From: Streptomyces tricolor
GTDB taxonomy: Bacteria; Actinomycetota; Actinomycetes; Streptomycetales; Streptomycetaceae
Length of the DNA stretch: 36,251 bases
NCBI RefSeq assembly: GCF_002155905.1
Contig: NZ_MUMF01000162.1
Coordinates: 1 to 36,251 of the forward strand
Direction: 5' to 3'
A program made the position numbers and the translations under genes. Below the pieces are notes generated by a model. The model saw nothing but the letters and a program-made list of their open reading frames with translations. It had not been told where the DNA came from and searched no databases. Numbering within the stretch: the first letter of the stretch is position 1; every line of letters begins with the position of its first letter. Positions 19,234 through 35,110 of this stretch are shown here, piece after piece.

Positions 19234-19262
19234 ACTATAGGCGATTCAGCTAAGTAGATTAG
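19234..19262 (-). promoter_or_regulatory. lgt promoter with CTAA-N5-TTAG palindrome (site A)
   Basis: On the - strand TATAGT (19239 to 19234) is a strong -10 and lies 6 nt before the lgt ATG. The palindrome CTAAGTAGATTAG at 19250-19262 sits where the -35 and spacer would be, and also inside the last codons of lnt. A protein bound there would block RNA polymerase, so repression is the likely mode. Confidence 0.7.
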
Positions 19263-20841
19263 TAAATTGCCGGTCATGCTCGGACCCACCGTCGGTCGTC
19301 GTGGGCGGGACGGCAACGCGCCGGGCGCGCCGTACGAACAGCAGGAGCCCGACGAGCACGGGCGCCCCCAGCAGCACCTCGGGCCATACGCCGAGCCACT
19401 CGGAGAGGGTGAGCTGCGAAGCGAGCGGCACGCGCTCCACCAGGTGACCGCCACGCCAGGTCCCCAGCCGGTCCATGACCTGTCCGTCCGGCCCGACGAT
19501 GGCGCTGACCCCGCTCGTCGAGGCGAGGGCGACCGCGCGTCCGTACTCGATCGCGCGGATGCGGGCCATCGCGAGCTGCTGCTCGGACTGCCCGGCCTGG
19601 ATGCCGCGCTCGTACGTCGCGTTGTTCGTCTGGACGACGAGGAGGTTGGCGCCCGCCCGTACGGTGTCGCGGACCCGGTCGTCGTACGCGATCTCGTAGC
19701 AGATCACGTCACCGAGCCGCGCCCGCCCCGCCTCCAGTGGGGCCGTCGAGGTGCCCGGCAGCAGGTCGCGGGGGATGAGTTGGAGCGCGCCGAGACCGCC
19801 GAGGAGCGAGCGTGCCGGGATGTACTCGCCGAAGGGGACGAGCTGGCGCTTGGCATACCAGGAGGCCGGGCCCTGGCCGGGCAGCCACAGCTGGCCGGCG
19901 TTGTAGGCCCGGTCGCCGGGGGCTTCCAGCATGGCGCCGATCAGGAGGGGGCTGTCCAGTTCCCGGACCGAGTCGGCGACCAGCGAGCCGAGCTCCGGAT
20001 TGCGTCCCGGATCGCCGTCGAGGGAGTTCTCCGGCCACAGGACGACGTCCGGACGTGGGACCTCGCCGCGACGTACGGCGTCGGCCAGGGCCTTGGTCTC
20101 ACGGGCATGGTTTTGTGCGACGCCGCGCACTCGGGCCTGCTCCTCCAGCGTGCGCTCGCGTTCGACGTTGCCCTGGACGACGGCGACCACGGCGCTCGGC
20201 CCGGATGGTCCCGGGGTGGGGAGGACGACCGGTGTCGTGATCAGGGCGACCGAGCCGAGGCCCACGGCCGCGCTGATGTGCCGACGGCCGCCGCGCCACT
20301 CCGTCACGCCGTACACCAGCAGTGATCCCAGGAGCGCGACGACGAAGGAGAGGGCTGGGCCGCCGCCGACTGCGGCCCAGCCCGCATAGGGGGCATCCGC
20401 CTGCGCGAAGGCCAGTCGTCCCCAGGGGAAGCCGCCGAGCGGGGCCCGACCACGTACCGCCTCCAGGGCCACCCACCACGCGGCGGTGTACAGCGGCCAG
20501 GCCGGCAGCGCGAGCAAGCGGGGCAGCGGCATCGCGGCGAGCGCGAAGAACAGGGCCTGGACCGCCGTGAGGGCGAGCCACGGGACCAGGCCGAGGTTCG
20601 CCAGCCAGATGATCAGCGGGGCGAGGAAGGCGAGGCCGAAGATCCCGCCCGCGGCGAAGGCGGACCGGGCGCGCCGCCCGTGCACCGCCATGATCAGCAG
20701 AGCCGGACCGAGCGGGGCCAGGAACCACCATCCGACCGGCGGGAACGAGGCGTAAAGCAGCAGTCCACCGGTGGAGGCCGCTGCCCAGGAACGGAGCGTG
20801 GCCGCACTGGGGCGGGGCACGCGCGGAGGACCGGCCCTCAC
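19246..20841 (-). CDS. lnt: Apolipoprotein N-acyltransferase
   Basis: Lnt adds the third acyl chain to the N-terminal cysteine of lipoproteins. The N-terminal part has several transmembrane helices (GLLLYASFPPVGWWFLAPLG, LTAVQALFFALAAMPLP). The C-terminal nitrilase domain has the catalytic Glu-Lys-Cys triad: E271 (LWPENSLDGD), K331 (WYAKRQLVPFGEYIP) and C381 (DVICYEIAYDD), matching the E. coli positions closely. Length 531 residues. The GTG at 20841 overlaps the stop of the upstream membrane gene in GTGA; an open frame further left is in that gene and is ignored. The final codons contain palindrome site A of the lgt promoter. Confidence 0.9.
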   Translation of the reverse strand: MRAGPPRVPRPSAATLRSWAAASTGGLLLYASFPPVGWWFLAPLGPALLIMAVHGRRARSAFAAGGIFGLAFLAPLIIWLANLGLVPWLALTAVQALFFALAAMPLPRLLALPAWPLYTAAWWVALEAVRGRAPLGGFPWGRLAFAQADAPYAGWAAVGGGPALSFVVALLGSLLVYGVTEWRGGRRHISAAVGLGSVALITTPVVLPTPGPSGPSAVVAVVQGNVERERTLEEQARVRGVAQNHARETKALADAVRRGEVPRPDVVLWPENSLDGDPGRNPELGSLVADSVRELDSPLLIGAMLEAPGDRAYNAGQLWLPGQGPASWYAKRQLVPFGEYIPARSLLGGLGALQLIPRDLLPGTSTAPLEAGRARLGDVICYEIAYDDRVRDTVRAGANLLVVQTNNATYERGIQAGQSEQQLAMARIRAIEYGRAVALASTSGVSAIVGPDGQVMDRLGTWRGGHLVERVPLASQLTLSEWLGVWPEVLLGAPVLVGLLLFVRRARRVAVPPTTTDGGSEHDRQFTNLLS

Positions 20842-21293
20842 GAAGGCACTGCGCAGACGTTCGCGGTGCGCAGTCGCCGGACCAGCGCATGGACGAGCAG
20901 GGCTACCGACGCCACGGCGAGCACCGGCTGCACCGGCGCGAAGTACGACAGGGCGCCGCTGACACCAATGGCCAGCACCACGAGCTTGTTGCAGATCGGA
21001 CAGCCGACCGCGAAGGCCGACAGCAGTCCCGCGCCGAGGGCGCGAACGGTACGGGGACGCTCGGGCGGCCCGGCCGCGGGGACGTCGGCCGGGCCGATGC
21101 GGACGTACGTGGCCACCAGGAGCCCCTCGAGCGCGGAGCTGACCAGCCACACCGGGTAGTTCCACCACAACACCGGAGTCATCCGCGTGTAGAAGGGGGT
21201 CGGTACGACGCCTGTTGGGACGCCGATGACGAGTGCGGCGATCAGTGTCACCGCTACTGCCACGACCCATCTGCGGGCGGGCCAGGTGCGCAT
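20838..21293 (-). CDS. Membrane protein with GCPICNK motif, upstream of lnt
   Basis: The 151-residue protein has about four hydrophobic segments: VVAVAVTLIAALVIGVPTGV, YPVWLVSSALEGLLVATYV, LGAGLLSAFAVGCPICNKLV and YFAPVQPVLAVASVALLVHA. The membrane-embedded CPIC pair (GCPICNK) is conserved in related actinobacterial proteins and looks like a redox or metal-binding dithiol. A GAGGAG motif 7 nt before the ATG at 21293 fixes the start; an earlier ATG at 21383 is in frame but lacks a ribosome-binding site. It is coupled to lnt by a GTGA overlap. I do not know a named family. The thiol pair and the CcdA/TlpA genes nearby suggest a redox or copper role. Confidence 0.75.
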   Translation of the reverse strand: MRTWPARRWVVAVAVTLIAALVIGVPTGVVPTPFYTRMTPVLWWNYPVWLVSSALEGLLVATYVRIGPADVPAAGPPERPRTVRALGAGLLSAFAVGCPICNKLVVLAIGVSGALSYFAPVQPVLAVASVALLVHALVRRLRTANVCAVPS

Positions 21294-21384
21294 GGGGCTG
21301 CTCCTCGGGATCGGACCGCCGACCGGAGGGCCCGGCGAACGGGGGGCGCCTAGGGACGTCTCCGGTCGGCGTCTGGCGGCCATG

Positions 21385-21405
21385 CTAAGTCACTAATCGC
21401 CTTAG
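21385..21405. promoter_or_regulatory. CTAA-N5-TTAG palindrome (site B) before the GCPICNK-lnt unit
   Basis: CTAATCGCCTTAG at 21393-21405 matches the 13-bp pattern, with an additional CTAAGT half-site at 21385-21390. It lies about 100 nt upstream of the GCPICNK gene start. Two overlapping half-site sets suggest cooperative binding. Confidence 0.6.
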
Positions 21406-21430
21406 TAGCAATGAGGGCTTGATCGATGGA

Positions 21431-21697
21431 TCAATGGCGAGAATGGCGGGGCCGAGGCTCGATGACGCGCTGGCCATGGGCAAGGCCGGTCATGCGTCGC
21501 TGGTAGGAGGCTGTGTCGATCCGTCCGTGCAGCAGTAGGCCGGCGCACCACCGCTCCTCATCCTCAAGCGCCGCGCGCCTGCCCCTGATACGGGACAGGG
21601 GAGGGCGCCGGCTCTGGTATGTGCTGACCAGCCGAGCTATGTCGTAGAAGATCGCGGCGAGAAGCAGGCCGCCGATCAGTATCGCTATCGCGGCCAT
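21431..21697 (-). CDS. Small membrane protein, intact copy 1 of duplicated pair
   Basis: The 88-residue protein has one N-terminal transmembrane segment (MAAIAILIGGLLLAAIFYDI), then a basic soluble tail (SRIRGRRAALEDEERWCAGLL, LHGRIDTASYQRRMTGLAHG). The end resembles a SHOCT-like helix (L-x-G-R-I-D-T-x-x-Y-Q-R-R). It lies 16 nt downstream of the CPIGM gene of copy 1, so the two form a unit. A related but decayed copy lies at 21984-22325. Function unknown. Confidence 0.65.
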   Translation of the reverse strand: MAAIAILIGGLLLAAIFYDIARLVSTYQSRRPPLSRIRGRRAALEDEERWCAGLLLHGRIDTASYQRRMTGLAHGQRVIEPRPRHSRH

Positions 21698-21713
21698 GGG
21701 ACCAAGGCCCAGT

Positions 21714-21920
21714 TCACAAGGTTTCGCGTGTGTCCTTCTGTGCGGCGCGCAGCTCGGCGACTTCCTTGCGCAGCTCGTCCAGCTCGGAGTGCGTCGCGGG
21801 TGAGTCGATCGAGCCGCTTCGCCGTGATGTGTGCAGCCCCCCGCGCGTCATGAACCACATCATCAGGCCCATGCCGATCGGGCAGGCCAGGAGGAGCAGT
21901 GGATAGAGGGACTGAGGCAT
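21714..21920 (-). CDS. Small CPIGM membrane protein, copy 1 (DUF2933-like)
   Basis: This 68-residue protein has one transmembrane helix with a conserved thiol and Met cluster (LLLLACPIGMGLMMWFMTRG), then a coiled-coil tail (ELDELRKEVAELRAAQKDT). It resembles DUF2933-type proteins, which occur in heavy-metal clusters; the C-P-x-x-M and Met-rich face suggest metal or thiol chemistry. GGAGG lies 6 nt before the ATG at 21920. Copy 2 (22348-22551) is about 70 percent identical over the first 30 residues and shares long stretches of identical DNA. Palindrome site C is 55 nt upstream of the start. Confidence 0.7.
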   Translation of the reverse strand: MPQSLYPLLLLACPIGMGLMMWFMTRGGLHTSRRSGSIDSPATHSELDELRKEVAELRAAQKDTRETL

Positions 21921-21974
21921 AGGGGCCTCCGGGTGCACTGTGGAGCGCTCATCGAAACCGCTGCACGGCTTCTA

Positions 21975-21987
21975 CTAAGTAGGCTAG
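21975..21987 (-). promoter_or_regulatory. Palindrome site C (CTAAGTAGGCTAG)
   Basis: The 13-bp palindrome with CTAGCC on the other half sits 55 nt upstream of the CPIGM copy 1 start. The 11-bp CTACTAAGTAG at its left is itself nearly symmetrical. Spacing to the start nearly equals that of site D (51 nt) at copy 2, as expected after duplication with the promoter. Confidence 0.7.
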
Positions 21988-22325
21988 ATGGGGGGAGGGG
22001 TACGTGCCAGCCTGCCGTGCCCATTGCGCCGTGTGGCGGCTTGGTCGCTAAGTGCATCTCTCGATGTCGCTCGCGTGCTGGTTGCGGTGTGACTGGTGAA
22101 GTTGACGGTGAGTTTCGTGGGCGTGGGCGGCGGAGGTGCGACGTCCGGGCCGCATTGCTGGGCATTTGGTCCGGGGGCGGTGCGGTCTGCGCGAGTGAGG
22201 CGCGCGCCTTCCCTTGCGGGGGTGAGAGGTGGGCGCCAGCTCTGGTGCGAGGTGACCGTGCGGGCCGTGGCGTAGAGGGTCGCGGCGAAGGGCAGTGCAG
22301 CGGTCACTGCCGCTGCCGTGGCCAT
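21984..22325 (-). pseudogene. Decayed copy 2 of the small membrane protein
   Basis: The frame from the ATG at 22325 begins MATAAAVTAALPFAATLYAT then ARTVTSHQSWRPPLTPAREG, which aligns with copy 1 (membrane segment, then D-I-A-R-L-V-S-T-Y-Q-S-R-R-P-P-L). After about residue 45 the similarity stops: the SHOCT-like end of copy 1 is missing and the rest is Pro/Thr-rich and unrelated. A start with a membrane segment and a foreign tail points to frameshift or deletion decay after duplication. Confidence 0.6.
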
Positions 22326-22347
22326 GGGGTTGTTGTCGCTCCCGGGC

Positions 22348-22551
22348 TCAGTTCCGCAAAGGCTGCGGCGTGTCCTTCTGCGCGGCGCGCAACTCCGCGA
22401 TCTCCCTGCGCAGCTCGTCAAGCTCGGCCCGGCTCGATGCCGAGTCGTTTCGCTGCAGCGCGTGCGAGCCTCCTCGCATCATGAACCACATCATCAGGCC
22501 CATGCCGATCGGGCAGGCCAGGAGGAGTAGCGGATACAGAACCTGAGGCAT
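22348..22551 (-). CDS. Small CPIGM membrane protein, copy 2 (DUF2933-like)
   Basis: This 67-residue paralogue of the copy 1 gene has the same build: LLLLACPIGMGLMMWFMMRG followed by the coiled coil ELDELRREIAELRAAQKDT. A stretch of roughly 47 bases is identical between the copies (about 21849-21895 and 22481-22527). GGGAGG precedes the ATG at 22551 by 6 nt. Palindrome site D is 51 nt upstream. Its partner gene has decayed, while this gene appears intact, so selection may act on this protein alone. Confidence 0.7.
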   Translation of the reverse strand: MPQVLYPLLLLACPIGMGLMMWFMMRGGSHALQRNDSASSRAELDELRREIAELRAAQKDTPQPLRN

Positions 22552-22601
22552 GGGGCCCCTCCCGGTGGGGTGTGGATCGCTCGCCGAACCCACGGAAGCT
22601 A

Positions 22602-22614
22602 CTAAGAAGTTTAG
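22602..22614 (-). promoter_or_regulatory. Palindrome site D (CTAAGAAGTTTAG)
   Basis: The 13-bp palindrome with full CTAA and TTAG arms lies 51 nt upstream of CPIGM copy 2, on the same side and at nearly the same distance as site C at copy 1. Confidence 0.7.
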
Positions 22615-22714
22615 ATAGTTGGGGGAGTTGGCGCCAGTCTCCCGATATCCATGCGCGGAAGGTGGCTGCGGGACTGTTACGTCCGGGGTGGGCTGGCTTG
22701 CTTGCGTCAGTCTA

Positions 22715-22727
22715 CTAACTTACTTAG
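22715..22727 (+). promoter_or_regulatory. Palindrome site E (CTAACTTACTTAG)
   Basis: The 13-bp palindrome lies in the divergent gap between CPIGM copy 2 and the DegT-type gene, 121 nt upstream of the latter's GTG. With site D 101 bp away it may be a two-site control region for both directions. Confidence 0.65.
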
Positions 22728-22847
22728 TGTGGCATCGCGTCCTCCGCCGGACCCCGCACGGGCGATCACCGGTTGGGATCTGGCCATCGCGCGTCACTCC
22801 GCGCCTCGGGGAAGTCTCGGGGGCCACCGACGGAAAGGGGGGAAGCC

Positions 22848-24107
22848 GTGGGGTCAGGACAGTCATCGGGTCCGTCGCTCTCGGCCGGCGGTGCCCTCGA
22901 GGATCTGATGCGCGAGCGGCTCGGCCGGGAGTGCGTGTATGTCCCGTCGTGTCGACTGGGTGTGTACCTGGCACTACGTCGCTGGTGCCCTCCCGGGGGA
23001 AGCGTGCTGATGTCGCCGGTCAACGACGACGTGATGCTGTTCGTCGTGCTGGCGGCGGGGCTGCGTCCCGTTATGGCGCCGGTGTCCCCTCGGGACGGCA
23101 ACATCGACATCCGCGCGGTACCGGCATCGACCTGGCGCAGCGTGGATGCCGTTCTGACGACCAACCTGTACGGGATGCCGGACGACGCGGCCGAGTTGCG
23201 CAGGCGGTGCGACCGCATGGGCATTCCTCTCCTGGAGGACGCGGCACACGCGATCGGTACGGCGCTGGGCGACCGCCCGATCGGCACCTTCGGAACCGCT
23301 GCGGCCTTCAGCCTGGGCAAGCACGCGGGGGCGACCGGCGGCGGATTCCTGGCTCCGGAGGATCCGGGCGACCGCAAGGCGCTTGAACACCTGCGTGATG
23401 AGCTGCTGACGCCGCGACAACTGCACCAGGACCTGGCAAACGCCCTGCGCCCCATCGCGCGCGCCGCGGTACAGCGGCTTCATCTGGTCCGGCCCGTGTG
23501 GGAGACCATGCGCGCCCTGGGGCTGCTGGAGCGCGAACACTTCCGTATGGAGCTGCACGAACGCCTTCTGCGGGTGACGACGGGCCACAGTCCGGACCTT
23601 GGGGCCTTCGACCGCTGGGTGCGAGTCGATCTGCACGGATACCGCAGGGACCATGGACGCGTACTGCAGCGCGCGCTGCGGCGGCGGATGAGCGGCCTGG
23701 ACGCGGACCTGTCCCGGCGCCGTGAGGGGACGAGGCTGCTGGGCGGCACGGTATGGGCCGCCGCGGGTGTGCGTGGCGCGGTCGCGGAGGGGGTTGAGGA
23801 CCGCCATGTGCCGCCGCTGTTCCGCGTACCCCTGATGGTGCGCGATCGGGACACGCTGGTAGCCCGTCTGGAGCGGCGCGGTGTGGTGACCGGGTATGTG
23901 TACGACCCGCCCCTGGACGACTTCGCCGGACCGGAGTTCGTGGAGCCGTCGCCGGCGCCTGAAGCGGCCCGCTGGTTCGCGGCGCACGCGCTGCCGGTGG
24001 ACCCCCTCCAGGCGCGGAGGATGATGCGGTTGCTGCAACGGGAGGATCCGCAACCGGCGGAACCGGTGTCCGGCTCAACCCTCCGGGATCAGGCGCCGGG
24101 GCTGTGA
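22848..24107 (+). CDS. DegT/DnrJ/EryC1/StrS-type PLP-dependent enzyme
   Basis: The 419-residue protein has the fold of sugar aminotransferases: LYGMPDDAAELRRRCDRMGI, LLEDAAHAIG with the PLP-contacting D131, and a likely Schiff-base lysine K158 in AAAFSLGKHAGATGGGFLAP. The active-site loop is shorter than in typical StrS enzymes, where the lysine comes two residues later after S-F-H/Y. The C-terminal domain (DRDTLVARLERRGVVTGYVY) fits the small domain. No nucleotide-sugar genes are nearby, so the substrate is unclear. The GTG has a G-rich ribosome-binding site (GGGGGG) 5-10 nt upstream. Palindrome site E lies upstream, tying it to the lipoprotein/thiol set. Confidence 0.8.
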   Translation: MGSGQSSGPSLSAGGALEDLMRERLGRECVYVPSCRLGVYLALRRWCPPGGSVLMSPVNDDVMLFVVLAAGLRPVMAPVSPRDGNIDIRAVPASTWRSVDAVLTTNLYGMPDDAAELRRRCDRMGIPLLEDAAHAIGTALGDRPIGTFGTAAAFSLGKHAGATGGGFLAPEDPGDRKALEHLRDELLTPRQLHQDLANALRPIARAAVQRLHLVRPVWETMRALGLLEREHFRMELHERLLRVTTGHSPDLGAFDRWVRVDLHGYRRDHGRVLQRALRRRMSGLDADLSRRREGTRLLGGTVWAAAGVRGAVAEGVEDRHVPPLFRVPLMVRDRDTLVARLERRGVVTGYVYDPPLDDFAGPEFVEPSPAPEAARWFAAHALPVDPLQARRMMRLLQREDPQPAEPVSGSTLRDQAPGL

Positions 24108-24182
24108 CCCCGGGTTCGGGCCTCGCCAGCGTCGTCCTTCCCGCGCTGCTTCTCGGCGACGGCCGTTTCGTTTGGATCACTC

Positions 24183-24410
24183 ATGCTGAGCGGGTTCGTC
24201 GTTGATGATGTCCATGTGGCTCACCGCATCAGCATTCTGATCTCGGTCTTCGGGGTCCTCGTCAGCATGGCGCTTCTCATGCTTGCCATTCGTGAGTACA
24301 GAACCGGGGCATCGGCTGTCTGGATCGGAGCCGGAGCTGCGATCTTCCTGAGCGCGCTCTACGCGCTTGTGCAGGATGTGCGGCGCTCTCGCACGGGTCC
24401 TTCGGCCTGA
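24183..24410 (+). CDS. Small two-TM membrane protein
   Basis: The 75-residue protein has two hydrophobic helices, about 15-36 (RISILISVFGVLVSMALLML) and 46-63 (VWIGAGAAIFLSALYALV), with a short basic loop (REYRTGASA) and basic tail (DVRRSRTGPSA). It starts at the ATG at 24183; the ribosome-binding site is weak (GGATC). It is 75 nt after the DegT-type gene on the same strand and converges on ccdA. No family recognised. Confidence 0.55.
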   Translation: MLSGFVVDDVHVAHRISILISVFGVLVSMALLMLAIREYRTGASAVWIGAGAAIFLSALYALVQDVRRSRTGPSA

Positions 24411-24524
24411 AGGGCCTCAAGCGAAACTGCCTGGTGCGAGCCAATGGACGAGAGTCGCCCGTGCCGGTCGGCTCGGCGGTTTCTCCGGGTGGGGGACCGG
24501 CCTGCCCCTCGCGCGACGGGCCCA

Positions 24525-25298
24525 TTACAGCGGGAGCTGGAAGCCGGTGATGAGGGTCTGAAGCTCGGCGATCAGCTGCCCCCACCAGCCGGTCACCTGC
24601 ATGATCCCCACTGCCACCAGCAGGACTCCGCCGCCTCGCATCACCGTCCGTGCGTGCCGCCGTGCCCAGGCGAAGCGCCGCATCGCGCCATCGAACGATG
24701 CCGCCGCGAGCAGAAAGGGGATGCCGAGGCCGAGGCTGTACGTGAACGACAGGACGGCCCCGCGCCCGGCGCTCGCACTGTCCGCCGCCAGGGACAGGAC
24801 GGCCGCGAGCGTAGGGCCGATGCACGGTGTCCAGCCGATCGCGAAGAGGGCTCCGAGCAGCGGCGCCCCCGCGAGGCCCGCGCCGGGCCGGAAGGAGGGC
24901 CGCCAGCTGAACCCGGCCAGCGGCAGCTTGTCGAGCAGCCCCGCGAAGACCAGGCCGAGCACGATGGTCAGCGAGCCCAGCACGATGCCGAGTGTGCGCT
25001 GCTGCGCCAGCAGCACGGCGCCGGCACCACCGAACAGCGCGCCGTAGCTGGTGAAGACGGCGGCGAAACCGACCACGAACAGCAGGCACCCGACCAGGAC
25101 CCGCCAGCGCGCCGCTCGCCTCGCCGCATCGGCGGCACCCGCGCCGGACATGCCGGCGACGTACGAGAGGTAGCCCGGGACCAGTGGAAGGCAGCAGGGC
25201 GAGAAGAAGGACAGGGCTCCGGCGGCGAGGGCCAGGAGGAGGGCGAGGACGAGCGGGCCCGCCAGGACCGTCTCGCCGACACCGGCGGCGAGCGTCAC
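24525..25298 (-). CDS. CcdA-type thiol-disulfide electron carrier
   Basis: CcdA carries reducing equivalents from cytoplasmic thioredoxin across the membrane to TlpA-type proteins. The 257-residue protein has six hydrophobic segments and the paired cysteines expected: C35/C36 in FFSPCCLPLVPGYL and C159 in AIGWTPCIGPTLAAV. In the usual form the first motif is P-C-V-L-P; here a second Cys (PCCLP) is present. The GTG at 25298 overlaps the TlpA-type stop in GTGA, with GGAGG 8 nt upstream. The two genes form an operon under palindrome site F. Confidence 0.9.
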   Translation of the reverse strand: MTLAAGVGETVLAGPLVLALLLALAAGALSFFSPCCLPLVPGYLSYVAGMSGAGAADAARRAARWRVLVGCLLFVVGFAAVFTSYGALFGGAGAVLLAQQRTLGIVLGSLTIVLGLVFAGLLDKLPLAGFSWRPSFRPGAGLAGAPLLGALFAIGWTPCIGPTLAAVLSLAADSASAGRGAVLSFTYSLGLGIPFLLAAASFDGAMRRFAWARRHARTVMRGGGVLLVAVGIMQVTGWWGQLIAELQTLITGFQLPL

Positions 25299-25993
25299 TT
25301 GGCAGTACCTCCGCCGTTCTTCTCCGCCTTCTGCGCTTCCTCCGCGGCGAGATCCTTCACCAGCTCGCGCAGCGTCGCATAGGTGATCGCGCCGATCACG
25401 CGGGCGGCGATACGCCCGTCGCGGTCGATCAACACAGTGCTGGGGACCGCCGCGAGCGGGATGCGGCCGTTGAAGCGCAGGAGCAGCTTTCCGTCGGGGT
25501 CGCGGAAGCTGGGGTACGTGATGCCGTAGTTCCGCTCGAAGGCCCGCGCCGCCGCGTCGTTGTCGCGCGTGTCGATGCCGACGAACCGCACGCCGAGGTC
25601 GTATGCCTCCTCGGACACCTTCTTCAGATCGGGCGCCTCGGCGCGGCACGGCGCGCACCAGGACCCCCACACGTTGAGCACGATCACCTTGCCGCGCAGG
25701 TCGGCCAGGTCCAGCCGGTCGCCGGTGATCGTCTTGCCGCTGAGGTCGGGGGCCATGGGGCGCTTGCCTGCCGGGTACTGGGTGAGCCCCTGCTGGCTGC
25801 CGGAGCCGGCTGCCTGCTTGGCGTCCGAGGAACCAGATGTCGTACTCGTCCCGCACGCGGCGAGCAGCAGAGCGGCCGCGATCACACCCGCAGCCTGCCG
25901 CCGCGTTCGGGGACGTGCCTCTGCCCGGCCGGCGCCCCACTCCACCCGTGACGTCATGGGAGCGGACTGCGTGTGGGGTGCCGTTGGGGCCAC
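25295..25993 (-). CDS. TlpA/ResA-type thioredoxin-like lipoprotein
   Basis: The 232-residue protein has a basic N-region (ARPRTRRQAAGVIAA) and a lipobox LLAAC with C47 as the lipidation site, so it would be processed by Lgt and Lnt. A thioredoxin domain of the TlpA/ResA type follows, with active-site W-C-A-P-C (C113, C116) in LNVWGSWCAPCRAEAPDL and the cis-proline loop LAAVPSTVLIDRDGRI. It would reduce or isomerise extracytoplasmic disulfides, for example in cytochrome c or copper-protein assembly. The GTG start has AAGGAGAG 8 nt upstream. Palindrome site F is 34 nt upstream of the start. Confidence 0.92.
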   Translation of the reverse strand: MAPTAPHTQSAPMTSRVEWGAGRAEARPRTRRQAAGVIAAALLLAACGTSTTSGSSDAKQAAGSGSQQGLTQYPAGKRPMAPDLSGKTITGDRLDLADLRGKVIVLNVWGSWCAPCRAEAPDLKKVSEEAYDLGVRFVGIDTRDNDAAARAFERNYGITYPSFRDPDGKLLLRFNGRIPLAAVPSTVLIDRDGRIAARVIGAITYATLRELVKDLAAEEAQKAEKNGGGTAK

Positions 25994-26378
25994 GGCTGTC
26001 TCTCCTTCACCAATAGCGAGAAGCTGCTAAGTAGCTTAGGTGTACTTCTCGGGCTTCCTTCAGCCGGGGGCACCGAAGGGTGGCCGGGGCTGTGATCCCA
26101 CCGCGTGTGGCGGGCGTGTTCAGGCCGACGCCTGCTCGGAGGGCGGGTGGCTTGTACGCGATGGTGGGGGCGAGGATGCCGCCGCCGTCGACGTACGGCC
26201 ATACGGAGAGCCCGCGGCGAGGACGGGTCCGCACGTCCAGTGCGGCGGAAGTAACTCAGCGGGGGTCTCCGCCATCCCCGGGAGCCCTGCCGCACTCGGT
26301 GCTGCCGCCGCTCGTATATTCGCCACAGCGGATCGCCGAGTGGCTCGATCCTGCCTGTGGAGCGAGGGGTGGGTCACG
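25994..26378. other. Divergent regulatory gap between TlpA-type and large membrane protein genes
   Basis: These 385 bases contain palindrome site F at its left end and an AT-rich patch (GTATATT, about 26314-26320) that may be part of a + strand promoter. An open + strand frame runs through, but its composition is unlike coding DNA and I ignore it. No other feature seen. Confidence 0.5.
26027..26039 (-). promoter_or_regulatory. Palindrome site F (CTAAGTAGCTTAG) before TlpA-CcdA operon
   Basis: This is the most symmetrical copy of the 13-bp motif and lies 34 nt upstream of the TlpA-type start. The arms overlap the expected -35, and CTATTG/TATTGG at 26010-26016 (- strand) is a weak -10. Geometry is like that at lgt. 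Confidence 0.7.
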
Positions 26379-28748: not shown

Positions 28749-28824
28749 CGGTGAGCGGCCCTCTGACGGCAAGGGGGCCCTGCGCTCCGAGCCCGCTCCC
28801 CAATCGGCCAGGACGCCGTCATGT

Positions 28825-28843
28825 TACCCCCTAGGGGTATGCT
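28825..28843 (+). promoter_or_regulatory. CsoR operator with embedded -10
   Basis: TACCCCCTAGGGGTA at 28825-28839 is identical to the core of the copZ operator at 34907-34921. TATGCT at 28838-28843 can serve as a -10, and an ATG follows 7 nt later at 28851. This looks like a functional copper-responsive promoter firing to the right, but no convincing gene follows it. Confidence 0.7.
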
Positions 28844-28850
28844 CTCCTTT

Positions 28851-29009
28851 ATGCGTATCGGAGAGCTTTCGCTGACTCCCTCGAGTCGCCCCTGCCGATC
28901 GGTGTGCGGTGTGGGGTCGGTCGAAATCGTCCTGCTCAAGAGGATGTTGGGCCTGTGCCTGAGGCTGCGCCTCGTCGTGTCCGGTGACTGTTCCAGGGCT
29001 ACTGGCTGA
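28851..29009 (+). CDS. Possible short ORF behind CsoR operator (MerR-like start)
   Basis: The ATG at 28851 lies 7 nt after a -10-like TATGCT, so a leaderless 52-codon message is conceivable. The first residues MRIGELS are the usual start of MerR-family regulators, but the rest (RPCRSVCGVGSVEIVLLKRM, then LGLCLRLRLVVSGDC) does not continue as MerR. It could be a truncated MerR remnant or a small Cys-rich peptide (four Cys). Only seven residues support the MerR reading, so this is speculative. Confidence 0.25.
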   Translation: MRIGELSLTPSSRPCRSVCGVGSVEIVLLKRMLGLCLRLRLVVSGDCSRATG

Positions 29010-29150
29010 CGTGCGGGGCCGAAAGCTCTCCCGTTGTCGACCTGGCGAGGGGACCGGACCGACCCCGTGGACCTTGCATGAGGTGCGCGCCGGGCGGGGC
29101 CCCGCCTCTGGCTCTGATGCCGTGTGGGACCCCGCCGCGCTCAGATCACC

Positions 29151-31010
29151 TCAGTGTCCCGTGTACTGGAAGATGTAGAGCCCGAAGTCTCGGTCGGATG
29201 CCGCGACGTACTCCTTCCCGAAGGAGTTGAAGGTCTCGACGCCCCAGAAGTTGTTGCCGCCTTCGTCTATGAAGCGGCCGACTTCCACGAGCTTGTCGTT
29301 CTTGATCTTCGTGACCCGGAATCCGCCGGCGTAGTAGGAGAAGTAAGCCAGGTCGGGCCGGACGCCCGAGGTCGCCACCTCGTGGACGCTCAGGTCACCG
29401 AAGCCGGAGGCGTACGCGGGGTCCTGGCCCTCCGGGATGGCATAGGTGTCCAGCTCGGTCATCTTCCCGCCCTTGTTGCGGTAGAGGTGGACATAGCCCC
29501 AGCCGTCGAAGTACGACGAGAAGGTGAGCCTGTCGCCCTTCGTGCCGATGTCCACCGGCAGGGTGGCGGGACCGGTGCCGGCGAGGCAGTCGTCGTTGCT
29601 GTACGGCTGGTCGAAGACGGCGAAGCCCTGCCCGCGCGGTGCGACGCCGAAGGTCGGGAGGGTGCCCTCGACGGTCATGCCGCTCTGCGTGTCGCAGGCG
29701 TCCGAGCCCGGGCGGTTGAAGACGAGGATGGCGTCGTAGCCGCCCGCCGCCTCGACGTTGGCGACCTTTTCAGTGAAGGTGCACACGCCTCGCTCCACAA
29801 CGGCGATGTCCACCGCGGCCGGGTCGCCCGCGGGGACGGCAGGGCTGTCGTTGCAACCGAGGCCGACGTACACCGTGTCGCCGGTGATGCTCTTGCCCGT
29901 CTCCAGCGGGATGCCCTGGCCGGCCGTGATGGCTGTGCCGTCGTCCAGGTTGCGTGCCGACAGCGCGTACGGGCCGAAGTCCTCGTCGGCGCCGATCACA
30001 TACCGGTTGCCGAGAGTGAACTCCGCCTGGTGGCCATTGCCTTCCGGTGCCACGTCACGCCCAGCCGCGGTGCCCTCGGGATCGGGGTTGGTGAAGTCCG
30101 TGTCGCCGATGTACTTGAGGTTCTTGGGGTCGGTCGCGTCGAGCGCCACGTAACCCGCGTCCCAGTAGGAGGCCAGCAGGACCTGTCGGCCGCGGATGTT
30201 CTTGACGACCATGTCGTGCAGGAAGACCTCGGTGAGGTTGTCCGGGGCGGCCTGGAGGATCTGCGGGAAGGTTTCGTCGAGGTCGTACTCGGCTATGAGC
30301 TGCGGCTTGGTCGGGTCGGTGATGTCCATGATGTCGACGTCGGTGCCCTCTTCGTTGTCGACGATCACGGCGTACGCCTTGCGGCCCGCGTCCCAAGCGA
30401 ACACGCTGTGGATCTGGCGGGCGGTCTCCGTCGTCTCGCCCTCGAGGGTGAAGTCGCCGACGCCCTCGGCGAGCGTCTTCGGCTTGGTGGGGTCTGTGAC
30501 GTCGTAGATGTTCATGCCGCCGGAGCCGGTCTCGCCGCAGATCTCGTTGTTGCTGACGAGTACGTCGCCGTTGAAGGACGGCGTGGACAGGTGCACCGTC
30601 TGGATGCCCTCGCCGGGAGCGCTGCCGGCCGGGGCGGGGATGAAGCCGACCTCCTTGGGCTTGCTGGGCTTGCGGATGTCGACCACGTACACGCCGGTGT
30701 TGTCGCAGCCGACGCCGCCCCAGGAGGCGAGGTAGGCGTAGCCCTTGTAGACGCCGACGTCGGCGATCTTTCCCTCGACGACGTTGCTCAGCTTGAGTTT
30801 GCTGACCAGGCGGACGTTCTTCTGGGTGGCCGGCAGGTGTCCTTCGCTGCCGCCGTGCTGGTCGTGGCCGTGTGTGGCCGCAGCGTTGTCGATGGCGCCG
30901 TCGGTCGCTGAAACGCCGTCATGTGCCTGTGAGGAACCGGCGAGAGCTGTCGTGGCGAAGAGTGCCGCCGCGAGCACGCCCACGCCGGTCCGTCTGTGGG
31001 CCTTGCGCAT
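29151..31010 (-). CDS. Secreted LVIVD-repeat protein with PA domain
   Basis: The 619-residue protein has a signal peptide (MRKAHRRTGVGVLAAALFAT, cleavage after about 29) and no lipobox. A short His-rich stretch (GHDQHGGSEGH) follows. The body is a beta-propeller of LVIVD repeats (VYVVDIRKPSKPKEVGFI, MNIYDVTDPTKPKTL, VDIMDITDPTKPQLI, YVALDATDPKNLKYI), with a protease-associated domain inserted (GVCTFTEKVANVEAAGGYDA). It is a likely extracellular surface protein, with no catalytic motif seen. GGGAGG lies 6 nt before the ATG. It diverges from csoR (31266), and a degenerate CTAAGTA half-site lies near 31093, so metal control is possible. Confidence 0.8.
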   Translation of the reverse strand: MRKAHRRTGVGVLAAALFATTALAGSSQAHDGVSATDGAIDNAAATHGHDQHGGSEGHLPATQKNVRLVSKLKLSNVVEGKIADVGVYKGYAYLASWGGVGCDNTGVYVVDIRKPSKPKEVGFIPAPAGSAPGEGIQTVHLSTPSFNGDVLVSNNEICGETGSGGMNIYDVTDPTKPKTLAEGVGDFTLEGETTETARQIHSVFAWDAGRKAYAVIVDNEEGTDVDIMDITDPTKPQLIAEYDLDETFPQILQAAPDNLTEVFLHDMVVKNIRGRQVLLASYWDAGYVALDATDPKNLKYIGDTDFTNPDPEGTAAGRDVAPEGNGHQAEFTLGNRYVIGADEDFGPYALSARNLDDGTAITAGQGIPLETGKSITGDTVYVGLGCNDSPAVPAGDPAAVDIAVVERGVCTFTEKVANVEAAGGYDAILVFNRPGSDACDTQSGMTVEGTLPTFGVAPRGQGFAVFDQPYSNDDCLAGTGPATLPVDIGTKGDRLTFSSYFDGWGYVHLYRNKGGKMTELDTYAIPEGQDPAYASGFGDLSVHEVATSGVRPDLAYFSYYAGGFRVTKIKNDKLVEVGRFIDEGGNNFWGVETFNSFGKEYVAASDRDFGLYIFQYTGH

Positions 31011-31248
31011 GCTTGACCTCCCACTCGTGCGGCCGGGGTTACCGGCCCATAACGAGGTGATGCCGGTCACCAACTGACCGGCATCCGGAAGGTACTTAGT
31101 GCAAAGCTCTACCGAAAGGTCTTTTACGAGATCGTATTTTGCCGGGACTTGGCGGAGGCACCCGCGGTCACGGCGTAGCTGCCGATGGGTGACCGGGCCC
31201 TGGGCCTGCGGCGCGGAGGTGCGTCCACTTCCCTTCGGTACCGCGACG

Positions 31249-31268
31249 TAATACCCTTGGGGGGTATG
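31249..31268 (+). promoter_or_regulatory. CsoR autoregulatory operator overlapping the csoR start
   Basis: ATACCCTTGGGGGGTAT at 31251-31267 is a CsoR-type dyad whose last bases include the ATG of csoR at 31266. TAATAC at 31249-31254 can serve as the -10, so the message would be leaderless or nearly so. Bound CsoR would block both transcription start and translation start. Confidence 0.7.
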
Positions 31269-31583
31269 GAGCAAGTGGAACAAGTCGAGGTCGACCAGGC
31301 GCCGCCGGGCTACCACGACGACAAGGACGCCGTCCTCAAGCGACTCCGTCGTATCGAGGGGCAGGTTCGTGGCCTGCAGCGCTTGGTGCAGGAGGATAAG
31401 TACTGCATCGACGTGCTCACGCAGGTCGCGGCGACCACGAAGAGTCTCCAGGCCGTGGCCATGCAGCTGCTGGAGAAGCACCTGGACCACTGCGTGCGCG
31501 AAGCCATGGTGGCCGGGGGAGAGGTGGCCCGGGACAAGGTCACCGAGGCGTCGCAGGCCATCGAACGACTGCTGCGTACGTGA
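31266..31583 (+). CDS. csoR: Copper-sensing repressor CsoR (canonical ligands)
   Basis: The 105-residue protein of the DUF156/CsoR family has the core RLRRIEGQVRGLQRLVQEDK, the ligand set C47, H72 and C76 (YCIDV, KHLDHC) with the 25- and 4-residue spacing of known Cu(I)-binding CsoR proteins. Cu(I) binding releases it from C-tract/G-tract operators. Start is the ATG at 31266, inside its own operator; an open frame further left would include the promoter. Likely targets in this window are its own operator, the copZ operator at 34907 and the site at 28825. It differs from the 14104 paralogue, which lacks the third ligand. Confidence 0.92.
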   Translation: MEQVEQVEVDQAPPGYHDDKDAVLKRLRRIEGQVRGLQRLVQEDKYCIDVLTQVAATTKSLQAVAMQLLEKHLDHCVREAMVAGGEVARDKVTEASQAIERLLRT

Positions 31584-31751
31584 TCCCGGCCGGGGAGCTT
31601 GTGGCGGCCGGCGCCTCAGTGGCGGCGCATGGTTCGTGCCGGACCTGTGCGGCTGGTGGCAGGCTAGTCCGTAGACTCACCTTCGCCGGTTGTGGGCGCC
31701 AGGAGTAGCGGTGGCACCGACCGGTGTTCCCGCAGTCTCACCCCACATGCC

Positions 31752-31806
31752 GCGCGCACGGGCAGGGGAGGTGGACACGTCCTCCGAGGCGCCTGCCCGT
31801 GCGCGC
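31752..31806. repeat. 15-bp perfect inverted repeat
   Basis: GCGCGCACGGGCAGG at 31752-31766 is the exact reverse complement of 31792-31806, with a 25-nt loop that itself contains GGAGG/CCTCC. No T tract follows, so it is not a clear terminator. It could be a transposon-end scar, a terminator of csoR, or a structured RNA. Confidence 0.55.
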
Positions 31807-31931
31807 ATCCTTCGGCGCGTCGGCAGGGGAGATGCCCAGTGTCCATCCACCCGCCCCCGCGCACTGTTGCTTACGCGAGTGACTACTCACCCGTCTCTCG
31901 GCTGGGAGGCTGCGCGCGTGCCACCGCCCCG

Positions 31932-32036
31932 CTGGAGACCGTCATTCTCGAACGCACCGGCCACATGCCCATGCTGGAACGCCCGGACGCCTTCAAAACC
32001 GAGGTGGGGCACCTCCTGGACACACTCGGCGACTGA
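31932..32036 (+). pseudogene. C-terminal remnant of alpha/beta-hydrolase
   Basis: The + strand frame ends LETVILERTGHMPMLERPDA then FKTEVGHLLDTLGD and stop. G-H-M-P-M-L-E-R-P is the catalytic-histidine region of alpha/beta-hydrolases, but the nucleophile, oxyanion and lid parts are absent; the upstream in-frame sequence has no such motifs. It is most likely the tail of a deleted hydrolase gene. Confidence 0.65.
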
Positions 32037-32067
32037 GTGGACAGGGCCCCCGAGACGACCCAACGGC

Positions 32068-32098
32068 GCGGCGCCCGGCTGGAAGAGCCGGGCGCCGC
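32068..32098. terminator. 13-bp GC hairpin behind copA
   Basis: GCGGCGCCCGGCT at 32068-32080 pairs perfectly with 32086-32098 across GGAAG. It sits 24 nt past the copA stop and just after the hydrolase remnant, so it can end transcription from both sides. No T tract follows, as is common in Streptomyces. Confidence 0.75.
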
Positions 32099-32121
32099 AG
32101 TCAACCGTCTTGCCGACGCGC

Positions 32122-34404
32122 TTACTTGAAGGACCGAAGCCGCAGGCTGTTGGTCACCACGAAGACCGAGGAGAACGCCATCGCGGCGCCCGCGATCATC
32201 GGGTTGAGCATGCCGAGGGCGGCGAGCGGGATGGCTGCGACGTTGTAGCCGAAGGCCCAGAAGAGGTTGCCCTTGATGGTGGACAGGGTCCTGCGGGAGA
32301 GGCGGATCGCGTCGGCCGCCACCCGCAGGTCGCCGCGCACGAGGGTGAGGTCGCCGGCCTCGATCGCCGCGTCCGTGCCGGTGCCCATGGCCAGGCCCAG
32401 GTCGGCGGTGGCGAGGGCGGCCGCGTCGTTGACGCCGTCGCCGACCATCGCGACCGTACGGCCCTCGCTCTGCAGTCGCTTGACGACGTCCACCTTGTCC
32501 TCGGGCAGGACTTCGGCGATGACCTCGTCGATGCCGACGGTCCTGGCCACGGACTCGGCGACGAGCTGGTTGTCGCCGGTCAGCAGCACGGGCTTCAGGC
32601 CCAGCCGGCGCAGTTCGGCCACCGCTTCCGCACTGGTCTCCTTGATGGCGTCGGCGACCGTGAGGACACCGCGCGCCTCGCCGTCCCAGGCCACGGCGAC
32701 CGCAGTGCGGCCCTCGGCCTCTGCGGCGGCCTTGGCCTCGGCCAGTTCCGTGGGCAGTTCGATGACCCACTCCTTCAGGAGCTTCTCGCGGCCCACAACC
32801 ACCGCGTGCCCGTCGACGACGCCCTGCACCCCGAGGCCGGCGACGTTCTCGAAGTTCTCCGGCACCGGAAGGTTTCCGGCCCGATCGGCCGCACCGGAGG
32901 CGATGGCCTGGGCGATCGGGTGCTCCGAGGCGTGCTCCAACGCGCCCGCCAGCCGCAGCAGTTCGCCTTCCTCCACGCCTGGTGCGGTGAACACGTCCTG
33001 CAGCTGCATCCGTCCCGTGGTCACCGTGCCGGTCTTGTCCAGGACGATCGTGTCGACGCGGCGGGTGGACTCCAGGACCTCGGGGCCCTTGATGAGGATG
33101 CCGAGCTGGGCGCCCCGGCCGGTGCCGACCATGAGGGCGGTCGGAGTGGCCAGGCCCAGCGCGCACGGGCAGGCGATGATCAGGACCGCGACAGCGGCGG
33201 TGAAGGCGGCGGTCGCGTCCCCGGTCACGAACAGCCAGGTCAGCAGGGTGCCGAGGGCGAGGAGAATGACCACGGGGACGAAGACGGAGGAGATCCGGTC
33301 GGCGAGGCGCTGCACCTCGGCCTTGCCGTTCTGCGCGTCCTCGACGAGCCTGGCCATGCGGGCGAGCTGCGTGTCGGAGCCCACCCGGGTTGCCTCGACG
33401 ACGATTCGGCCCCCGGCGTTCACGGTCGCGCCGGTCACGGCGTCGCCGACGGTCACGTCGACCGGCACGGACTCGCCGGTCAGCATGGAGGCGTCCACCG
33501 CCGACGCGCCCTCGACGACGGTCCCGTCGGTGGCGACCTTCTCCCCGGGCCGTACGACGAAGCGGTCACCGACGGCCAACTGCGCGACAGGGATGCGTAC
33601 TTCCTTGCCCCCGCGTAGAACCGAGACGTCCTTCGCGCCCAGTTCCATGAGCGCCCGCAGTGCCGCCCCCGCCTTGCGCTTGGACTTCGCCTCCAGGTAG
33701 CGCCCGGCGAGGATGAAGGTGGTCACACCGGCCGCAGCCTCCAAGTAGATGGAGGAGGAGCCGTCCCCGCGGGAGATGGTGAACTCGAAGCCGTGCCGCA
33801 TGCCCGGCATCCCGGCGTGTCCGAAGAACAGTGCCCACAGCGACCAGCCGAGTGCGGCGAGCGTGCCGATGGACACCAGGGTGTCCATGGTCGCGGCGCC
33901 GTGGCGGGCGTTCGTCCAGGCGGCCTTGTGGAAGGGGAAGGCGCCCCAGACCACGACCGGTGCGGCCAGGGTCAGCGACAGCCACTGCCAGTTGTCGAAC
34001 TGCAGGGCCGGGACCATCGCCATCGCCACGACGGGCACGGTGAGCACCAGCGACACGTACAGACGCTGCCGCAGCGACAGCAGTTCACCGTCCGCCGCCG
34101 GAGCCGCCTCGCCCGCACGCTCATCGGCGGTGGCGGGCACGGGCGGAGGCGGCTCCTCGGCGGTGTACCCAGTCTTCTCTACGGTGGCGATGAGATCGGC
34201 GATCTCGATGCCATCCGGGTAGGAGACCTTCGCCTTCTCGGTGGCGTAGTTGACAGTCGCCGTAACACCGTCCATGCGGTTGAGCTTCTTCTCGATGCGG
34301 GCCGCGCACGAGGCGCAGGTCATGCCGCCGATGGAGAGCTCGATCTCGGAGGTGGGTACGGGCGCTGTGTCGCGGACTGCCTTCTCGGGAGCCGTGCTGG
34401 TCAT
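32122..34404 (-). CDS. copA: Copper-exporting P1B-type ATPase
   Basis: The 760-residue pump drives Cu(I) out of the cytoplasm. One N-terminal heavy-metal domain carries GMTCASC (27-33; C30, C33). Then come the P1B landmarks: TGES (309-312), the membrane C-P-C (412-414), phosphorylation motif DKTGT (D456), SEHP (493-496), and GDGVND (655-660). Two C-terminal membrane helices follow, with N and Y in the FGYNVAAIP segment and an M-x-x-S motif near the end, marking CopA-type specificity. GGAGAT precedes the ATG by 8 nt. It lies 115 nt downstream of copZ on the same strand and is probably transcribed from the CsoR-controlled copZ promoter. Confidence 0.95.
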
Positions 34405-34519
34405 GTGCGTATCTCCAGGGGGAGGCCGGGACGCACAGCGTCCGTATGAGCGGAGCGATACGTCCCGGCGCGGGGAGGAATTCGCGTATCCGGAGCCGTC
34501 GTGGACCCCGGCTGAGCTG

Positions 34520-34822
34520 TCAGGCGCGGCCGACGAGCTCGTAGCCCGCCTCGTCGACGGCGGCGCGTACGGCCTCCTCGTCGAGCGGGGCGGTGGAGGT
34601 GACGGTCACCTCACCGGTCTTGGCGACGGCTTGGACCGCGGTGACGCCGTCCAGCTCGGAGATCTCCTTCGAGACCGCGCCCTCACAGTGGCCGCAGGTC
34701 ATGCCGGACACCTTGTAGACGGTGGTGACGCCGACGCCCTGGACGTCGACCGTGGTGCCGGAGCCGCAGGAACCGCAGCAGGAGCCGGCGGCCGTCTCGG
34801 TGGTGTTCGTCTCGGTGGTCAT
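34520..34822 (-). CDS. copZ: Copper chaperone CopZ with Cys-rich N-terminal extension
   Basis: The 100-residue protein has a heavy-metal domain from about residue 34 ([21 protein letters not shown]43 and C46) and would hand Cu(I) to CopA. It carries an N-terminal extension of about 30 residues with C-C-G-S-C-G (C15, C16, C19), a second possible metal site not found in minimal chaperones. GAGGAAG lies before the ATG. A CsoR operator 85 nt upstream (34907-34921) with an adjacent TATAGT on the - strand gives copper-inducible expression. It is followed by copA. Confidence 0.93.
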
Positions 34823-34902
34823 GGCTTCTTCCTCGGGGTCTGGATGCGTGGGTCGTTTCCGGGAGGGACGCCGCTTCCCTGCCTCTCCCGGCCAATGCCA
34901 AC

Positions 34903-34921
34903 ACTATACCCCCTAGGGGTA
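34903..34921 (-). promoter_or_regulatory. CsoR operator and -10 for copZ-copA
   Basis: TACCCCCTAGGGGTA at 34907-34921 is the CsoR-type dyad, and TATAGT (34908 to 34903 on the - strand) directly beside it is a good -10. CsoR binding would cover the -10 until Cu(I) is present. The 5' leader to copZ is about 75 nt. Confidence 0.8.
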
Positions 34922-34975
34922 TTCCGTCACCCTGTGATGCTGCCCACGCGATCTACTTGAAGCGGGCCCCGCTCG

Positions 34976-34988
34976 CTAATTTGCTTAG
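34976..34988 (+). promoter_or_regulatory. Palindrome site G (CTAATTTGCTTAG) before the riboswitch
   Basis: The 13-bp motif lies just upstream of the cobalamin riboswitch, in its likely promoter; TAGGCT at 34989-34994 could be the -10. The CsoR operator is 55 bp to the left but faces the other way. This places the riboswitch under the same palindrome as the lipoprotein/thiol genes. Confidence 0.65.
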
Positions 34989-34994
34989 TAGGCT

Positions 34995-35110
34995 GTCGTG
35001 ACCTGCGACGACAACGCCACATCGCGTCGACGGTGAGCAGTAACCGGGTGAGAATCCGGGACGGTCCCGCCACTGTGGACGGGGTTGCCCCGGGAGTCAG
35101 ACGCTGCCCC
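34995..35110 (+). ncRNA. Cobalamin (AdoCbl) riboswitch, orphan
   Basis: The conserved core is clear: GGTGAGCAGTAACCGGGTGA, GAATCCGGGACGGTCCC, then the B12 box GCCACTGT and GAGTCAGACG near the 3' end. A short hairpin GGGGTG/CACCCC at about 35128-35141 may be part of the expression platform. Riboswitches of this class shut down cobalamin or cobalt uptake and B12-independent enzymes. No gene follows on the + strand: the next gene, pspAB, converges from the right and ends at 35202. The regulated gene has apparently been lost. Confidence 0.9.

Follow-up and report, generated by a model that had tools for sequence, protein, structure and literature searches.

Closest described systems

In the BlaI-BlaR1 and MecI-MecR1 systems of staphylococci and bacilli, the gene for a repressor of the Pfam family PF03965 stands beside that for a membrane zinc protease as a tandem, and according to PMC7593790 BlaR1 cleaves BlaI upon a signal. 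Here we analyze a 36,251-nucleotide stretch of Streptomyces tricolor DNA (contig NZ_MUMF01000162.1, positions 1 to 36,251; hereafter the window), in which an earlier reading of the letters alone (the sequence-only reading) had noticed seven copies of a 13-bp palindrome, CTAA-N5-TTAG. With high probability (about 0.9), these sites are predicted operators of a BlaI repressor encoded on another contig of the same genome, C739, which would be relieved by a BlaR1-like protease without a beta-lactam domain and would control an island of copper and envelope genes. The sites, their clustering and conservation, their co-localization with one type of BlaI and the operators ahead of blaI operons elsewhere are observed by computation, and on this computational basis the case for the C739 BlaI as the putative regulator is strong.

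The S. tricolor pair is like BlaI-BlaR1 and MecI-MecR1 in that a PF03965 repressor and a membrane zinc protease are encoded as a tandem. It differs from them in that the protease is devoid of a penicillin-binding sensor domain, in that the predicted targets are copper and envelope genes, and in its operator, TACTAA-N5-TTAGTA as compared with the TACA/TGTA elements given in PMC7253601. The CopY/CopR copper repressors of Firmicutes share the Pfam family and copper-linked targets with the present system and, according to the same source, carry C-terminal Cys-X-Cys metal motifs. The C739 BlaI (127 aa) contains no cysteine, and hence no Cys-X-Cys motif, so it is no direct copper sensor of the CopY type; that candidate was rejected also because the CopY operator TACANNTGTA was absent from the 17 loci scanned; KACANNTGTM was found in them once, in locus L116. 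In summary, the system would operate in the manner of BlaI-BlaR1 and is a member of the BlaI/MecI/CopY family, but it lacks the features that define the CopY subgroup and the beta-lactam-sensing BlaR1. The best PDB sequence match of the C739 BlaI was 2g9w from Mycobacterium tuberculosis (E 1e-22, residues 2-116), an entry titled conserved hypothetical protein, which we take to be Rv1846c, the BlaI of that organism. Targets of M. tuberculosis BlaI include blaC and an ATP-synthase-linked gene, as stated in PMC12565901.

The motif TAWATAAA, reported for CutR in PMC12802291, had no exact match in the seven window sites when these were inspected by eye, and CutR was rejected as the regulator; among the CutR sites of that paper, TAAGTAAA is similar to TAAGTAAG, which is found on the minus strand of site E. 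The copYZ genes of Streptomyces mirabilis plasmid pI, as described in PMC9195940, had no certain match to the BlaI genes studied here, and their phenotypes were not used. Literature searches, including those for CTAAGTAG, BlaI, CutR and pFRL, retrieved no description of the operator; subscription journals were largely outside these searches, so that a prior description is possible.

Palindromic sites in the window and in the genome

When the window was scanned for CTAA-N5-TTAG with at most one mismatch, seven matches were found, compared to a mean of 0.53 and a maximum of 3 in 100 shuffles, and none of them lay to the left of 19 kb. Six sites match exactly, and a single mismatch occurs in site C. 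Coordinates, rarity by chance, the mismatch in site C and the empty left part of the window were thus all as the sequence-only reading had described them. The sites, with window coordinates, are:

19250..19262, strand., operator A: exact CTAAN5TTAG, 22 bp 5' of lgt
21393..21405, strand., operator B: exact, about 100 bp 5' of the GCPICNK gene, which precedes lnt
21975..21987, strand., operator C: one mismatch, 5' of the first CPIGM gene
22602..22614, strand., operator D: exact, 5' of the second CPIGM gene
22715..22727, strand., operator E: exact, 45-120 bp 5' of the DegT gene (start uncertain)
26027..26039, strand., operator F: exact, 33 bp 5' of the tlpA GTG at 25993
34976..34988, strand., operator G: exact, 154 bp 5' of copZ

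Sites C and D are located 50-55 bp 5' of the two CPIGM genes, and the divergent CPIGM gene might be under the control of operator E as well. Several sites had been said to extend beyond the 13 bp; TACTAA is indeed present on one of the two strands at six of the seven (the exception being site F), but the extended form TACTAAGTAG occurs exactly at site C only. Similarly, the statement that every copy lies just upstream of a gene or an RNA is correct with regard to genes, which follow all seven sites, whereas the riboswitch beside site G does not reach the Rfam gathering score. The consensus of the 17-bp operator is TACTAA-N5-TTAGTA, with the more general form TACTA-N7-TAGTA.

The genome of S. 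tricolor (8.83 Mb; 8,832,356 bases in 1107 contigs) contains 19 exact CTAAN5TTAG sites and five matches to the reversed pattern. Sixteen of the 19 are on five contigs, C189 (the window), C499, C739, C419 and C822, which together amount to 119,920 bases (binomial P 1.2e-27), and the three remaining ones (C153, C165 and C750) are taken as chance occurrences. In 149 other genomes of the genus there were 0-11 exact sites each, 0-5 in 143 of them, and the reversed control was mostly higher. Because 16 of 19 sites are on five contigs and counts in the genus are low, the motif abundance in this genome belongs to an accessory element, and the even random spread that would have spoken against a regulon was not seen. 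The highest count among the 149 genomes (11) was that of G033, which has a blaI of type I (84%; types are introduced below) and two sites 27 bp apart.

An operator matrix was built from 17 sites of the S. tricolor genome, leaving out the exact matches on C153, C165 and C750, and a threshold of 13 was chosen after looking at the data. At this score or above, 26 sites are predicted on the five island contigs, 17 of which are the training set. Predicted targets are lgt, the GCPICNK gene with lnt, tlpA-ccdA, ResB, L,D-transpeptidases, an NlpC/P60 hydrolase, copZ, a P-type ATPase, a NicO-type transporter and small membrane proteins. The sites do fall in promoter regions, where the AT content exceeds that of genes, and might in principle be chance AT-rich promoter words; however, the shuffle and reversed-pattern controls, the genus comparison and the recurrence of the motif in another order make such an origin extremely improbable.

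Co-localization of the sites with a BlaI-M56 pair

The sequence-only reading had named the BlaI/MecI/CopY class as one candidate and had seen no such gene in the window, and a PF03965 profile search of the window contig likewise gave no match. In the whole genome there are seven PF03965 matches, two of them on C739, where one is the gene of interest:

C739:40099-40479, type I blaI: 127 aa, PF03965 85.7 bits (cut-off 22.6)

This blaI overlaps the gene for a membrane zinc protease of 303 aa, which is followed by a site and then by an NlpC/P60 gene, so that the candidate class is supported by a BlaI-family gene and a BlaR1-like protease among the regulon genes. Just 5' of blaI, a 69-aa protein judged CopZ-like by eye is encoded (L018:5564-5773, on C739), which has no cysteine and therefore lacks the CxxC that binds copper.

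Of 30 orthologues listed from other genomes (at least 64% identity; type I), 20 were analyzed with their surroundings in stretches of 20 kb, together with a second batch of 20 loci consisting of eight of type II, marked by 'VRQLGELEAEIM', and 12 of a core Streptomyces paralogue, marked by 'PRPLGELEDAVM'. A site scoring at least 13 was present within 3 kb of blaI in 18 of 20 type I loci (at least 20 in 15 of 20) and in all eight type II loci; whole stretches gave 32 matches versus 7 for reversed sequence in type I and 19 versus 1 in type II. In contrast, none of the 12 core loci had a site of at least 13 within 5 kb (whole stretches, 3 matches versus 1 reversed), and the core BlaI paralogue was rejected as the regulator on these grounds; at E 1e-8, no M56 gene was found beside it in any of the 12. 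Counting exact CTAAN5TTAG no more than 3 kb from a type I or II blaI gave 17 sites in 17 of the 28 loci, where 0.057 would be expected from the per-genome counts. Among 80 named Streptomyces loci, some of which come from genomes also present in the other set (the BlaI of L118 is identical to that of S. tricolor, and L189 and L190 look alike and are counted twice), 71 had a site of at least 13 (reversed, 2 of 80) and 38 a site of at least 20 (reversed, 1 of 80).

The families most common to the 28 type I and II loci were BlaI (27), the M56 protease (25), NlpC/P60 (15) and a family DUF305-like by reading (13), the next one occurring in eight. The sites might instead be bound by another regulator of the island, such as a TetR protein, an OmpR-type response regulator, a SigE-like sigma factor or the second BlaI of C739, and such genes do exist in the island or in plasmid pFRL4. 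Yet of the 14 families most shared in these loci, just one besides BlaI looks like a regulator, namely a TetR-like family in three loci; the second C739 BlaI (C739:17330-17665, L028) has no site of at least 8 within about 1.5 kb, and the pFRL4 sequence contains one BlaI place at E 1e-5 and nevertheless 20 operator matches. We consider another island regulator very unlikely.

Operators on linear plasmids and ahead of blaI operons

The copper island of S. tricolor has relatives on linear plasmids. Window positions 17.9-35.1 kb align to pFRL3/pFRL4 of Streptomyces sp. FR1 and F2 with 90.1% over 80% of the length, and C739:35000-45119 and C499:1-20000 are covered to 41% at 89.0% and to 47% at 86.0%, respectively. 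Between 110 and 208 kb, pFRL4 carries lgt, lnt, tlpA-ccdA, ResB-CcsB and copZ-copA, a single BlaI-M56 pair, and genes for an Ig-like protein, C40/M23/M15 peptidases, FemAB, MurJ, VanW, a multicopper oxidase and DUF305 proteins. A stretch of about 16 kb on S. mirabilis pI combines lgt, lnt, ccdA-tlpA, C40 and ResB-CcsB with BlaI-M56 and the gene for a multicopper oxidase; elsewhere on this plasmid, BlaI-M56 occurs a second time.

Matrix matches of at least 10, with overlapping ones counted apart, numbered 10 and 14 in two stretches of pFRL4 (reversed, 1 and 0), 11 in pI (reversed, 0) and 1 in Streptomyces liliifuscus (reversed, 0). They recur at orthologous places: ahead of lgt (29.2 in pFRL4, 20.1 in pI) and of an lgt-like gene, by reading, in L095, as counterparts of operator A; ahead of tlpA (23.3 and 22.0), as counterparts of operator F; for operator B with 27.5 in pFRL4 and weakly, with 12.1, in pI; and for operator G at the equivalent place in pFRL4 (L035:40146) and ahead of a copZ-like gene in pI (L198:36678). 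Further matches precede C40 and lie at ResB and the Ig-like gene in the plasmid relatives. Therefore, a lack of conservation at orthologues, the other outcome that would have argued against a regulon, was not observed: other strains have sites ahead of their lgt, tlpA and lnt-linked genes. Scans of whole records for TACTAW-N5-WTAGTA with at most two mismatches gave 20 matches versus 1 in the control for pFRL4, 16/0 for pI, 17/6 for Rhodococcus erythropolis CERE8 and 9/3 for Mycolicibacterium gallinarum. An IS110 transposase gene (L035:23755-24957) lies in pFRL4 between a CPIGM gene and an operator resembling window site D. A pI gene labeled helix-turn-helix that adjoins an operator (L037:24180) was rejected as a regulator, as by our own reading it resembles a transposase fragment.

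In several replicons, a like operator precedes the blaI operon. Copy 2 of pI has the order GCPICNK homologue, blaI and M56, with a site about 40 bp 5' of the first gene, and the same arrangement of operator, GCPICNK homologue, blaI and M56 is found in L093, L095 and L189. The site lies in the divergent C40-blaI gap in L088, ahead of the blaI operon in L091 and 31 bp 5' of blaI in Streptomyces fildesensis L179; outside the genus it precedes M23-blaI-M56 in R. erythropolis and Rhodococcus opacus, and blaI in Nocardia pNF1 and Gordonia pG135. The proposal to look for a regulator preceded by the same site was thus borne out in these replicons, but not in S. tricolor itself. When inverted 5-mers were counted without bias at BlaI-M56 in seven further plasmid loci, TACTA-N7-TAGTA or the overlapping ACTAT-N5-ATAGT ranked first in five, with 8 copies in Mycolicibacterium vanbaalenii (0.002 expected), 4 in R. 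erythropolis and 2 each in R. opacus, Nocardia and Gordonia. The motif did not surface in such a count in the long Streptomyces/Kitasatospora loci, where GC-rich words led, or in M. gallinarum. Operator matches with at most two mismatches in L111-L117 were 5/0, 6/4, 3/0, 3/0, 5/0, 12/1 and 0/0 (forward/reversed). Kitasatospora pKP058 (L110, positions 13732 and 14913) has the variant ATCTTCTA-N7-TAGAAGAT, of equal spacing with the outer base altered, ahead of ccsB and between C40 and blaI, and offers a natural test of altered BlaI recognition. Tandem overlapping sites, TACTAAGCAACTAAGTA, were noted in L086 (2183) and L087 (2225-2233), 90-110 bp 5' of one gene that is presumably mshA-like and concerned with mycothiol synthesis.

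Several observations weigh against the assignment of the sites to this type of BlaI. The S. tricolor type I blaI has no site of at least 8 ahead of the gene itself, and C739 encodes the second BlaI, which is of a different type. Sites within 3 kb are missing from the type I loci L072 and L077 (2 of 20), nine of the 80 named Streptomyces loci have none, and three of the 12 core loci show weak matches (13.1-14.4) at a distance of 5-6 kb. Four Streptomyces/Kitasatospora plasmids with small modules have no excess over the control (2/1, 3/4, 2/2 and 1/1). Three of the five loci in which the repeat ranked first hold only two copies, the Kocuria locus has no repeat, and the M. gallinarum locus does not rank it first.

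Promoter geometry, protease and proposed mechanism

The promoter of the NlpC/P60 (C40) gene has a TTG whose first base is 21 or 20 bases ahead of the site center (15 and 6, respectively, of 87 non-redundant sites), and a -10-like word, TAAGNT at +3 or TAGNNT at +4, overlaps the right arm of the site. This geometry suits a repressor covering the spacer and the -10 region. As a counterpoint, all 15 TTG at -21 belong to one orthologous promoter, C40, and no shared -35 position was seen at the other promoters. Promoter overlap is therefore claimed for C40 only and was withdrawn as a general feature, since the TTG enrichment derives from that promoter alone.

The 303-aa protease matches Peptidase_M48 with 35 bits (cut-off 20.3) and Peptidase_M56 with 27.9 bits, below the cut-off of 31. 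Its HExxH motif is at 179-183, with H179, E180 and H183 invariant. The best fold match of the structural model was BlaR1 of Staphylococcus aureus, 8exq (E 8.9e-3, probability 1.00, TM 0.37), with no match at E 0.001 or better, and a sequence-profile search of the PDB returned HtpX 3cqb alone (E 0.0021). No Pfam match for a beta-lactam-binding sensor domain was found in the 303 aa, and the model ends just past helix 276-297. An alignment of 25 Streptomyces proteases shows no variation at H63, H65, C75 and C298, and in a wider set of 36 proteases C75 is invariant and the other three are conserved in at least 90%. Across 100 type I rows, the conservation of H63, H65, C75 and C298 is 93, 94, 98 and 98%, respectively, and in eight type II rows it is 100% for each. 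Residues 63-75 are modeled with low confidence (pLDDT about 50) as a loop between helices 32-58 and 88-129, which by analogy with BlaR1 would be extracellular.

In the scheme that we infer, a BlaI dimer would bind and cover the promoter, repressing the copper-resistance and envelope-maintenance island with its 26 predicted sites. A signal from outside the membrane, in all likelihood copper or the envelope damage that it causes, would activate the protease, which would inactivate BlaI, as BlaR1 does BlaI, so that the gene set is switched on. Copper as the signal is the weak step of this scheme; it is suggested by the gene content and by a loop that is conserved in Streptomyces only. Speaking against copper, H63 and H65 are unconserved in 11 other rows, mostly from Mycobacteriales, in which C75 reaches 81% and C298 27%.

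Specifically, the Streptomyces-type M56 protease may be an extracytoplasmic copper sensor, in which His63, His65 and Cys75 of the loop between helices 2 and 3, together with Cys298 past the last helix, would bind copper and trigger BlaI cleavage. Due to the restriction of the loop to Streptomyces, this proposal is tentative and stays below even odds. If true, it would describe a BlaR1-like relay in which the place of the beta-lactam domain is taken by a metal-binding loop, and this relay would be part of a wider family in actinobacteria that has the TACTA-N7-TAGTA operator in common. With the same repressor and operator, the protease might as well sense envelope damage (failure of peptidoglycan, lipoproteins or disulfides) rather than copper, the copper genes having joined later. 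The NlpC/P60 hydrolase as the commonest blaI-M56 neighbor (15 of 28 loci), the many envelope enzymes among the island targets and loci such as L075 and L083, which by reading of the gene calls are without copper genes within about 4 kb, are in favor of such a signal, but DUF305-, copZ- and copper-ATPase-like families (named by reading) recur in 13, 6 and 5 of the 28 loci, and the protease loop does bear H63, H65 and C75. We regard an envelope signal as possible, at somewhat less than an even chance.

With the BlaI-M56 pair, a large set of genes for copper resistance and envelope maintenance on Streptomyces linear plasmids gains a likely regulator and an operator, and Rhodococcus, Nocardia, Gordonia and Mycolicibacterium have plasmids with related BlaI-protease loci and operators. 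We predict that in actinobacteria BlaI-protease pairs, whose best-known role is in beta-lactam resistance, act in the response to metal or envelope stress.

Genes downstream of the window sites

The genes and other features next to the seven sites are:

18364..19227, strand -, lgt, prolipoprotein diacylglyceryl transferase (island copy): PF01790, 222.8 bits
19246..20691, strand -, lnt, apolipoprotein N-acyltransferase (start uncertain): PF20154, PF00795
20838..21293, strand -, GCPICNK membrane protein: no Pfam match
21714..21920, strand -, CPIGM small protein 1: no Pfam match
22348..22551, strand -, CPIGM small protein 2: no Pfam match
22773..24107, strand +, DegT/DnrJ/EryC1-type gene (start codon uncertain): PF01041, 81.2 bits
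24525..25298, strand -, CcdA-type membrane protein: PF02683
25295..25993, strand -, TlpA-type thiol-disulfide protein: PF00578/PF08534
32122..34404, strand -, copA-like P-type ATPase 3' of copZ: gene call; the pFRL4 counterpart is annotated as heavy metal translocating P-type ATPase
34520..34822, strand -, CopZ-like heavy-metal-associated protein: PF00403, 60.8 bits
34906..34922, strand., CsoR-type box ATACCCCCTAGGGGTAT between operator G and copZ: from sequence
35044..35100, strand +, cobalamin riboswitch remnant, probably, outside the regulon: AdoCbl 32.8 bits (cut-off 50), 56 bp to the right of G

The operator predicts new regulon members, namely the CPIGM and GCPICNK small proteins, which are without a Pfam family; a GCPICNK homologue is also the gene that sits between operator and blaI-M56 in pI, L093, L095 and L189. 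The box at copZ beside site G, which we take to be a CsoR box, is C-rich, unlike TACTAA-N5-TTAGTA, and this comparison of the site sequences by eye agrees with the earlier view that the sites differ from CsoR operators. Presumably, ACCCCCTAGGGGTAT at window positions 28820-28845 is a second box of the CsoR type, and a TACTAA-type site is absent nearby.

The riboswitch beside site G was rejected as part of the regulon, because the AdoCbl match is below threshold and no Rfam gathering score was reached. No cbtB-cbtA was found among the gene calls in the neighborhood of 35044-35100. At the equivalent place in pFRL4, a cobalamin riboswitch scoring 46 bits, above its cut-off, is located ahead of cbtB-cbtA, and the match in the window is probably what is left of such a riboswitch after a deletion.

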